Below are positions 9,043 through 11,297 of a stretch of DNA of 64,000 nt, piece by piece (positions within the stretch are counted from its first letter, which is position 1; each line of letters begins with the position of its first letter). Source of the stretch: Arboricoccus pini (GTDB taxonomy: Bacteria; Pseudomonadota; Alphaproteobacteria; Geminicoccales; Geminicoccaceae); assembly GCF_900187945.1 (NCBI RefSeq), contig NZ_FYEH01000007.1, forward strand, positions 124,001 through 188,000, in the 5' to 3' direction. Position numbers and translations under genes: made by a program. The notes beneath the pieces are model-generated. The model saw only the letters and a list, made by a program, of their open reading frames with translations, searched no databases and was not told the origin of the DNA.

Positions 9043-9276
9043 GGCGCTGCGTGGCCGTTGGGGGCCTGCTGGCTCAGCCGCTGTCTGCCAGCACCGCAAG
9101 TATGGAGGACGCCACGTTCGACCGTAGGCCGCTTGGCGCCGTCAACCGACTGCAGCAAGTGCAATCGTGGCGCCGTCCTGGTGGCTCCGTTGACCGCCCT
9201 CTCGGTGGGCCATTGTATCGCGAACATGCGGCAATGGACGGCCAATCCCGGCCGCCTCGTCCTCCTCTTGAGATGC

Positions 9277-9904
9277 CGCCTATGAGATCACCGAGATCCG
9301 CCTGTCGCATGTCTTCCTCTTCGACGAACAAGGCAAGATCAGGGCTCTCAACCATGATTGGTCGGTCCTGACCTTGAAGCCAGTCGAGGGCAGACCGCCG
9401 CTGCCCATGAAGCTGACACCAGCCAGTGCTGTCCGTGCGGCCATGCTCACGAATGCGCCGATCTTGAAGGTGGGGCCGATTCGGTCAGGCGCTGTTCCGG
9501 TCGCGACAGAGGGCCGCGGCATGCTCGAGCGCGACGGCCAGGGCGTCTTCCTGTTTCGCTACGGCGACGGCCTGGGCGCTGGCGCATCAGGCTCCGCGCT
9601 CTTCGTCGAGACGGTGGAAGGTTGGACCCGGGCGGGGCTGCAATCGGCTCGGGGCAAGATGTCGGAGGGCATTTGCGGGCTGGCGATAATGCCAGGCGGC
9701 GAGGCTGGACGGCTCACTTGGTCAGGTCGCGTTGCCTTTCCGCGATCGAGGTTTGTCCCCCCTCTTGAACCGGGCGGGCCGGGATTGGCGACTAGACAAG
9801 CGGCCCATCACTCCCTACGCGATTTGCAAGGGTCCGATCGTCGACGATATCGAGGCCGAGCGCGGGAACGGCCCCTGCGCCCTTCTTCGCGTGGAGTGAC
9901 CGGC
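9277..9904 (+). pseudogene. Decayed coding stretch upstream of the putrescine amidase gene
   Basis: The frame that runs into the amidase gene stays open upstream of its start, but it does not resemble one coherent protein. The first part (about 9277-9372) ends like an NTF2/SnoaL-fold protein (HVFLFDEQGKIRALN followed by HDWSVL). The next part (about 9374-9770) contains LFRYGDGLGAGASGSALF and GWTRAGLQSARG, slightly reminiscent of a trypsin-like active-site loop. The last part is Arg-rich and looks non-coding. No start codon with a ribosome site serves the first part, and a stop precedes it. I interpret this as fragments of former genes. The 234 bases between 9043 and 9276 show nothing recognisable. 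Confidence 0.3.
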
Positions 9905-10783
9905 ATGCGCAAGCTGAAAGTGGCCGCAGTTCAGATGGCCTGTGGCAACGATCGCGACCAGAATGTCGCGCGGGCAGAGGCGCTCGTGCGTCAGGCTGTC
10001 GCTGAGGGTGCGGGCCTCGTCCTGCTGCCGGCCCTGTTCGAGATGCGTTATTTTGGCCAGGAGCAGTCGGCGGCGCATTTCAATCTGGCGCGACCCTTCG
10101 AGGGCCATCCGCTGATCGCGCGGATGAGCAGGCTCGCGGCCGAACTCGACGTGGTGCTGCCAATCAGCTTCTTCGAGCGGGCCAACAACGCCTTCTTCAG
10201 TACGGTCGCCATCATTGACGCTGACGGCACGGTCATGGGCATCTATCGCAAGAGCCATATTCCGGATGGCCCATGCTGCGAGGAAAAGTTCTATTTTACC
10301 CCGGGCGATACGGGCTTTCGCATCTGGCGAACCCGGCATGGCGTCATCGGCGTCGGCATCTGCACGGATCAGTGGTATCCGGAATGCGCCCGGTCGATGG
10401 CTGTCATGGGAGCTGAGATTCTCCTCTTCCCGACCGTGCAGGGTGGTCGGCCACAGGAAGTCAGGCCCGAGAGTGTCTTGCACTGGCACCGGGTCATCCA
10501 GGGACATGCCAGCGCCAACCTGATGCCGATCATATCGGTCAACCGCCACGGTCTGGAGATGGGCGACCGAGACGCCTTGGCCTTTCAAGGCGGCTCCCTC
10601 ATCGTTGATGAAAAAGGCAATATCCTAGCCTCCGCCGGGCGCGAGGGCGACCAACTCCTCACTTATAGCTTCGATCTCGACGCCCTGGCGGCGGCCCGCG
10701 CTTCATCCGGCCTCTTTCGCGATCGCCGCCCCGATCTCTATCTCTCGCTTTTGACGCTGGATGGCCGCGACCAGATGTTCTGA
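9905..10783 (+). CDS. aguB: N-carbamoylputrescine amidase homologue lacking the first catalytic Glu
   Basis: Nitrilase-superfamily protein of 292 residues that aligns along its length with AguB, which converts N-carbamoylputrescine to putrescine, CO2 and ammonia. The catalytic Lys116 (YRKSHIPDGP) and nucleophile Cys153 (GICTDQWYPE) are present. The first triad residue, the Glu of the LLQELF motif in known AguB, is Ala43 here (LLPALFEMRYF; codon GCC at 10031-10033). ATG 9905 begins the family start MRKLKVAAVQMA. Later elements (GAEILLFPT, a typical C-terminal GGS region) are intact and length is normal. It may therefore be inactive or altered in function. Genes for downstream putrescine use, puuA and puuD, lie 20 kb away. 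It ends 4 bases from a convergent stress gene. Confidence 0.85.
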   Translation: MRKLKVAAVQMACGNDRDQNVARAEALVRQAVAEGAGLVLLPALFEMRYFGQEQSAAHFNLARPFEGHPLIARMSRLAAELDVVLPISFFERANNAFFSTVAIIDADGTVMGIYRKSHIPDGPCCEEKFYFTPGDTGFRIWRTRHGVIGVGICTDQWYPECARSMAVMGAEILLFPTVQGGRPQEVRPESVLHWHRVIQGHASANLMPIISVNRHGLEMGDRDALAFQGGSLIVDEKGNILASAGREGDQLLTYSFDLDALAAARASSGLFRDRRPDLYLSLLTLDGRDQMF

Positions 10784-10787
10784 GACG

Positions 10788-11297
10788 TCAGTGTGTGAGC
10801 TCGTCGATCTCGTCTGTGGAAAGTTCACCCGGAATGAGAACCAGTGGGATCTTGAGCTTGCGACCGAGCTGGTTGGTCACGTGGGTGACAAGGGGACCGG
10901 GATCCGCGCCGCCAGCCGCGGTGGCAAGGACGAGAGTGGAGATCGTATCGTCCTCCTGCACGAGCCGGACGACCTCGTCGGATCGCTTGCCCTCGCGGAT
11001 ATGAATGATCGGCATCGAGCCCGTCAGCTTGAAAACCTCGGCTCCAAGCTTTTGCATGCGTTGCTCGGCCGTGGCGCGCGCATCGGCCTCCATGATTCGC
11101 CCGACACCCAGCCAATGGCCGAACTCGACGGGCTCGATCACATAGAGGAGGGCCAGCCTGCCACCTGTGCGCTGCGCGCGGCGGCACGCATAGTGGAGGG
11201 CATTTCCCATCTCCTTGGTATCGTCGACCACCACCAGGAAGACCCGCTGCCTGACCTTCTTGGGCGTGACTTCGGAGAATGCGTCCTCGCTCATCAT
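10788..11297 (-). CDS. Universal stress protein (UspA family)
   Basis: Cytoplasmic UspA-domain protein of 169 residues. The Rossmann-like fold begins with RVFLVVVDDTKEMGNAL and continues through RAQRTGGRLALLYVIEP. It ends near IPLVLIPGELS. The usual ATP-binding G-x2-G-x9-G-S/T signature is not clean: the equivalent segment reads ATAAGGADPGPLVTHVTNQLGRK. It could be a non-ATP-binding member. An extra acidic tail (STDEIDELTH) follows. The gene is convergent with aguB and is followed upstream by the copper/redox genes on the same strand, separated by 58 bases. Confidence 0.88.
   Translation of the reverse strand: MMSEDAFSEVTPKKVRQRVFLVVVDDTKEMGNALHYACRRAQRTGGRLALLYVIEPVEFGHWLGVGRIMEADARATAEQRMQKLGAEVFKLTGSMPIIHIREGKRSDEVVRLVQEDDTISTLVLATAAGGADPGPLVTHVTNQLGRKLKIPLVLIPGELSTDEIDELTH

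Follow-up and report, generated by a model that had tools for sequence, protein, structure and literature searches.

The aguB orthologue of Arboricoccus pini lacks the catalytic Glu and departs from its family in the substrate pocket

The aguB orthologue of Arboricoccus pini lies at positions 9905–10783 (+ strand) of the window, the 64,000-nucleotide stretch of contig NZ_FYEH01000007.1 analyzed here, and encodes a 292-residue nitrilase-fold protein in which Ala stands in place of the catalytic Glu and much of the N-carbamoylputrescine pocket has changed. Judged from its sequence, the product (hereafter the window protein) is most likely a retained nitrilase-fold protein that is no longer specific for N-carbamoylputrescine, and we would name it an AguB-derived nitrilase-fold protein in preference to AguB. 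Our main reading, to which we assign a probability of about 0.43, is that the species' own aguB has had its pocket rebuilt and now encodes a maintained nitrilase-fold enzyme for a different ligand. The broader proposition that the protein is not a working AguB and is nevertheless maintained, counting also the possibility of a pseudoenzyme, has in our estimate somewhat better than an even chance; the narrower one that it is catalytic on a new substrate is put forward more tentatively. A sequence-only reading of this DNA had singled out the Ala and offered an inactive enzyme, a substitute carboxylate or a new role as explanations. It saw one change among many and missed the wider change of the substrate pocket. 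Of its options, an inactive enzyme and a new role are both still plausible, and the altered pocket tips the balance toward a protein that has lost its specificity for N-carbamoylputrescine. The gene is easily called aguB by similarity, and putrescine synthesis in Arboricoccus pini could be drawn wrongly as a result.

The reading frame at 9905–10783 translates without an internal stop. Its ATG at 9905 is consistent with the starts of homologues, and a likely ribosome-binding site, GGAG (9893–9896, + strand), lies 8 bases 5' of it. Codon-position GC (0.67/0.45/0.75) resembles that of the neighboring genes; with the frame open and this coding pattern present, we find none of the marks of a pseudogene (stops, frameshifts, a lost coding pattern). 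The TIGR03381 AguB profile matches the protein at 9e-115, with a score (382.8 bits) below the curated equivalog cut-off of 410.25 that all nine relatives tested clear at 458–479 bits, including L052 and L056, the two homologues taken up below. Pfam CN_hydrolase (PF00795) matches at 3e-44, its 151.7 bits far above the cut-off of 23.2, which places the protein in the nitrilase superfamily. Among solved structures, Medicago MtCPA (5h8i) is the closest in sequence. An AF2 model built from two sequences (mean pLDDT 71.8) matches MtCPA 5h8l with TM 0.83 and 50% identity in the structure match, and is of low confidence (pLDDT <50) at residues 47–64 and 120–136; it backs the predicted nitrilase fold rather than the details of the pocket, and pocket residues were placed by sequence mapping onto MtCPA.

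This is a vertically inherited aguB in its place, as both synteny and the tree attest. In the tree the window protein is grouped with the AguB of G011 (support 100), to which it is 66% identical. Two convergent neighbors that follow aguB are shared with relatives: of the 21 other family loci, 13 have the universal stress protein gene (Pfam Usp; 10788–11297, − strand) close to aguB and 12 the Alph_Pro_TM gene (PF09608; 11356–12126, − strand), counted within family-locus flanks of 1.5 kb or less. A possible objection is that we are looking at an extra paralogue beside a normal aguB; we reject this because the gene occupies the family aguB locus and the Arboricoccus pini genome (G000) yielded no second AguB-grade gene, the next best match being 35% identical. 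Upstream, a gap of 862 bases (9043–9904) holds no recognizable gene and shows codon-position GC without a coding pattern. The one frame scanned there against Pfam (9272–9904) had no match, and six-frame pieces of the gap, compared with the collected loci, matched nothing but the window's own sequence. The earlier description of a decayed region therefore holds insofar as the gap looks non-coding, and does not hold for the decay of any particular gene; a decayed region is one possible account of it.

Nitrilases are conventionally defined by a Glu-Lys-Cys triad, its Glu included. Codon 43 of the window gene (10031–10033, + strand) is GCC, placing Ala at the position of the catalytic Glu48 of MtCPA in an alignment that is gap-free around the site. 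The other active-site residues are in place: the triad Lys116 (10250–10252, + strand; MtCPA Lys121), the second active-site Glu127 (10283–10285, + strand; MtCPA Glu132) and the nucleophile Cys153, whose codon is followed by Thr for Trp (codons 153–154, 10361–10366, + strand; MtCPA Trp159). Lys, the second Glu and Cys are each found in 116 of 116 aligned rows and Thr154 in one, while the residue-43 column has Glu in 113 and Ala in three (the window protein, L052 and L056). The triad is thus incomplete only in its Glu, and the claim of a nitrilase with Ala at the catalytic Glu is confirmed by the TIGR03381 match, the ungapped alignment and the retained Lys116 and Cys153. The sequence-only reading had pointed to Glu46, three residues on, and to another carboxylate as a possible replacement. 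For Glu46 this was not borne out: Glu46 occurs in 41 of the 54 close homologues, 39 of which have Glu43 as well. A shift of the alignment that would return a Glu to the site, raised there as grounds for doubt, was not found either, and we reject it, the site being ungapped and Glu46 common alongside Glu43. A sequencing slip is very unlikely as the source of Ala43, because the corresponding codon in each of 21 family members differs from GCC by two bases or more, and because 14 other near-invariant positions differ too.

The departures are concentrated in the pocket. We took as near-invariant the columns at least 95% conserved in a 58-row alignment that includes 54 close rows (L029, L030 and L031 lie outside the 54). 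At 15 of 104 such columns the window protein departs, against 5 for the next worst row and a median of 1. Among pocket positions named for MtCPA, 7 of 14 have changed, against 8 of the 90 other near-invariant columns (Fisher p = 6e-4); the 14 are the near-invariant ones among the triad, the second Glu and the pocket residues named in the relevant part of the MtCPA paper (PMC4812014). In MtCPA numbering the changes are Glu48 to Ala, Tyr130 to Cys, Trp159 to Thr, Ala183 to Val, Ile184 to Gln, Glu187 to Arg and Trp277* to Ser, and the positions kept are Tyr54, Lys121, Pro125, Glu132, Cys158, Gln161 and Trp162. According to the same part of that paper, Glu187 binds the tail amine of the substrate and sets its charge and length, and Tyr130, Trp159, Ala183, Ile184 and Trp277* form the pocket walls (PMC4812014).

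In the window protein the amine-binding Glu is Arg182 (codon 182, 10448–10450, + strand), a charge inversion; the Ala-Ile pocket wall is Val-Gln (codons 178–179, 10436–10441, + strand); the Trp that reaches into the partner subunit's pocket is Ser (codon 268, 10706–10708, + strand); and Cys-Cys replaces Gly-Tyr (codons 124–125, 10274–10279, + strand), the second of the pair being the wall residue Tyr130. The AguB combination of an amine-binding Glu with an aromatic, hydrophobic pocket is absent, its places taken by Arg182, Thr154, Ser268, Gln179 and Cys125, with Tyr49 and Trp157 kept. W154T, A178V, I179Q, E182R and W268S are each found in one of the 116 rows, the window protein alone, and none of the aligned rows is an orthologue with the same pocket. 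For five of the seven pocket changes, none of the 21 family codons is fewer than two base changes away; the same is true of one of the eight other departures (p = 0.035). We infer that N-carbamoylputrescine would no longer be hydrolyzed well. Compared with AguB/CPA (TIGR03381; MtCPA, PDB 5h8i–5h8l), then, the window protein is alike in fold, full length and genome place and has the Lys, the Cys and the second Glu in common; it differs in having Ala for the catalytic Glu, Arg for the amine-binding Glu and five more changes in the pocket wall, and in scoring under the family cut-off.

The amount of change is unexceptional for this genome; only its location in the pocket is special, because departures at invariant columns are common across this genome's proteins: 15 of 118 in AguB, 19 of 128 in AguA (L032 and L034 excluded), 8 of 69 in the universal stress protein and 4 of 62 in Alph_Pro_TM. 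Terminal branches of the window genome and G011 measure 0.565 and 0.133 for AguB (4.3-fold), 0.616 and 0.129 for the universal stress protein (4.8-fold), 0.486 and 0.132 for AguA (3.7-fold) and 0.569 and 0.446 for Alph_Pro_TM (1.3-fold), ratios that are rough since the trees differ in rows (universal stress protein 14, Alph_Pro_TM 13, AguA 9). Compared with G011, the nearest of the relatives analyzed, the window lineage thus has far longer branches in three proteins (AguB, AguA and the universal stress protein) and an only slightly longer one in Alph_Pro_TM. We accordingly reject the proposal that aguB itself evolves unusually fast, as the universal stress protein and AguA are fast in the same lineage. 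Strong relaxation of aguB beyond that of its genome is not evident, because its stretch falls between those two; a degree of relaxation is conceivable, as the AguB branch is stretched somewhat more than that of AguA and far more than that of Alph_Pro_TM. A second AguB tree, made without 19 departed columns and so with a branch shortened by construction, gave 0.405 against 0.145 for G011, and we place no weight on it. In AguA of the window genome the motifs D-x-W-x-x-D, E-xxx-H-x-D and G-xxxx-C, those mappable by spacing, are intact; this mapping, which relied on active-site residues given in part of PMC6447857, covered part of the active site, and the AguA departures T82S and G103A adjoin active-site motifs.

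Putrescine can probably be made without AguB in this genome, because genes resembling ornithine decarboxylase and agmatinase are present. The first encodes a pyridoxal decarboxylase that, among solved structures, is closest to lysine/ornithine decarboxylases; it clears no NCBIfam cut-off, and its best model, lysA, is also below cut-off. It lies directly 3' of a gene for a protein with the saccharopine dehydrogenase domains PF03435 and PF16653, which we take to be a probable homospermidine synthase; no NCBIfam model names it. The two genes together occupy L143 1038–3723 of the window genome. The second is an arginase-family gene scoring above the TIGR01230 agmatinase cut-off, and the arginase Pfam family is found in 18 of the 19 family genomes searched. 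AguA (agmatine deiminase) is present too; its 343 bits fall short of the TIGR03380 cut-off of 381.8, as is to be expected because the lineage is fast. The aguA gene lies directly before what look like phosphoribulokinase, aldolase and RuBisCO genes (L040 9304–14169).

These genes bear on the alternative that survives best, although we consider it unlikely: that aguB became redundant once putrescine came from ornithine decarboxylase, agmatinase or the two together, and that its pocket is drifting as the gene is being lost. Besides the decarboxylase-like and agmatinase-like genes of G000, three family genomes (G002, G004 and G018) have AguA and no AguB-grade match, which fits such a course, as does the stretching of the AguB branch beyond those of AguA and Alph_Pro_TM. 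Canonical AguB is found in one of the four family genomes with a close decarboxylase copy (G000 among the four) against 12 of the 15 without (p = 0.07); this link among the 19 family genomes is suggestive only, being non-significant, and G003 has the decarboxylase and canonical AguB together. A gene on its way out also sits poorly with a frame free of stops and frameshifts, with 82 of the 90 non-pocket near-invariant columns kept, with a branch stretched less than that of the universal stress protein, and with pocket changes that in five of seven cases take two or three base changes. Taken together, the open frame, the coding GC and the multi-base pocket changes speak against simple decay and are compatible with some relaxation.

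For a maintained enzyme with a different ligand, we envisage the following. The lineage is fast-evolving and likely able to make putrescine from ornithine as well. The pocket would have become wider and charge-inverted, suiting a different, probably non-cationic ligand. Cys153 would attack, Lys116 and the backbone would hold the oxyanion, and Glu127 would assume, as far as it is able, the proton handling that Glu43 once provided. Glu127 could be the stand-in carboxylate; that it acts as base is something we infer ourselves, because the corresponding Glu-to-Ala mutant of Lnt, E267A, is reported as inactive (in part of PMC5500890) and the second Glu is described, in the portion of PMC6946656 that bears on it, as positioning the substrate and stabilizing the Lys, not as the base. 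The fullest form of this proposal, an enzyme without the triad Glu whose charge-inverted pocket takes a new anionic or neutral substrate, and which evolved without duplication from a single-copy aguB whose old job was redundant, is doubtful as a whole. Among the findings that count against our best explanation is the retention of AguA: N-carbamoylputrescine probably continues to be formed, and it needs some outlet. A precedent for an N-carbamoylputrescine amidohydrolase turned to another use is AguY with the type VI effector Tse8; unlike the window protein, AguY is described, in the part of PMC12283126 concerned, as nonhomologous to the canonical enzyme. Judged by ORF length, no AguY-type amidase directly adjoins aguA in G000, where an ORF of ~570 residues would be expected.

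The Lnt mutant also lends itself to a different view, that the window protein is a pseudoenzyme, folded and non-catalytic, kept to bind a ligand or partner. The general-base Glu is lost, as in that inactive mutant, while the fold and most other near-invariant columns are kept. We nonetheless think a pseudoenzyme quite unlikely, for Cys153, Lys116 and Glu127 have all been retained and a protein kept purely for binding has no obvious use for a nucleophile; moreover, the neighbors are those of a canonical aguB and so point to no special partner. A maintained protein with a new ligand is the reading we favor over a binding protein or a decaying gene, on a single genome of the genus.

We surveyed homologues for further losses of the Glu. 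The overlapping search sets comprised 60 relatives, 31 genomes from the order, which all belong to one family, 385 from the class and 398 from the phylum, with the 17-genome family of G067 as a further set; E limits varied between searches, and the stronger matches were aligned. For one search 71 of 72 matches were aligned, the match in G287 being left out; L103 duplicates L076 and was omitted from the 116-row alignment, and L122, L124 and L136 (G331, G156 and G145) have an internal stop, read as X. Further genome contigs gave one remote locus, viral contigs gave no match, and plasmid records gave 27 matches (E 1e-40 or better), each with less than 60% identity. Within the family of Arboricoccus pini Ala43 does not recur, with Glu in all 23 other members aligned (L002–L022, L027 and L028). 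It does recur in L052 and L056 (genomes G291 and G067), from two sister species of another family, so that the check proposed in the sequence-only reading, whether Ala43 recurs in orthologues of the same family, gives a negative answer within the family and a positive one elsewhere. In the literature no natural AguB without the catalytic Glu appeared in titles and the beginnings of abstracts, a scope that lay mostly outside subscription papers.

The pocket of L052 and L056 is otherwise canonical. Four other species of their genus that have this gene carry Glu at residue 43, and of the columns that show no other variation across the 116 rows, residue 43 is the only one at which the pair shares a change relative to these four. 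The pair encodes its Ala by GCC and GCT, each two bases away from the Glu codons (GAA or GAG) in the four relatives, and a single Glu-to-Ala change before the two species split would be the simplest reading. Between L052 and L056 dS is 0.78 and dN 0.047 (dN/dS 0.06). It is because Ala43 coexists with this ratio that loss of Glu43 alone does not amount to decay: an AguB without it can persist under strong purifying selection. Both genomes have AguA, and neither has a second AguB-grade match at E 1e-60. We considered Val123 as a partner of Ala43 in these proteins and rejected it, since L078 and L082, with Glu43, have Val123 too. The gene 3' of the Ala43 aguB in L056 (2475–3752) looks to us like one for a polyamine-binding transport protein.

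The window protein resembles the AguB of L052 and L056 in Ala43, in being the sole AguB-grade copy found and in the presence of AguA; it differs in that their pocket is otherwise canonical, purifying selection is strong and their scores lie above the AguB cut-off. That pair, the AguA retained in G000, and the crediting of both Glu48 and Glu132 with Cys activation in part of the MtCPA paper (PMC4812014) are what would favor a window protein that is still an N-carbamoylputrescine amidase, with Glu43 dispensable through Glu127 and the pocket changes tolerated, which we judge improbable given that Arg at the amine-binding position would repel a positively charged substrate, that Trp159, Trp277*, Ile184 and Tyr130 are lost as well, and that the score falls under the equivalog cut-off. 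With two natural losses of the Glu in AguB, one alone and with strong purifying selection, the other with a rebuilt pocket, material is at hand for testing whether catalysis can proceed on the second, invariant Glu.

A second AguB-like group in our alignment (L090, L091, L092, L123, L130, L138 and L139) has Cys at the position of Tyr130, and in its members the loop bearing the amine-binding Glu187 is deleted; by their sequences, these proteins perhaps act on another substrate.
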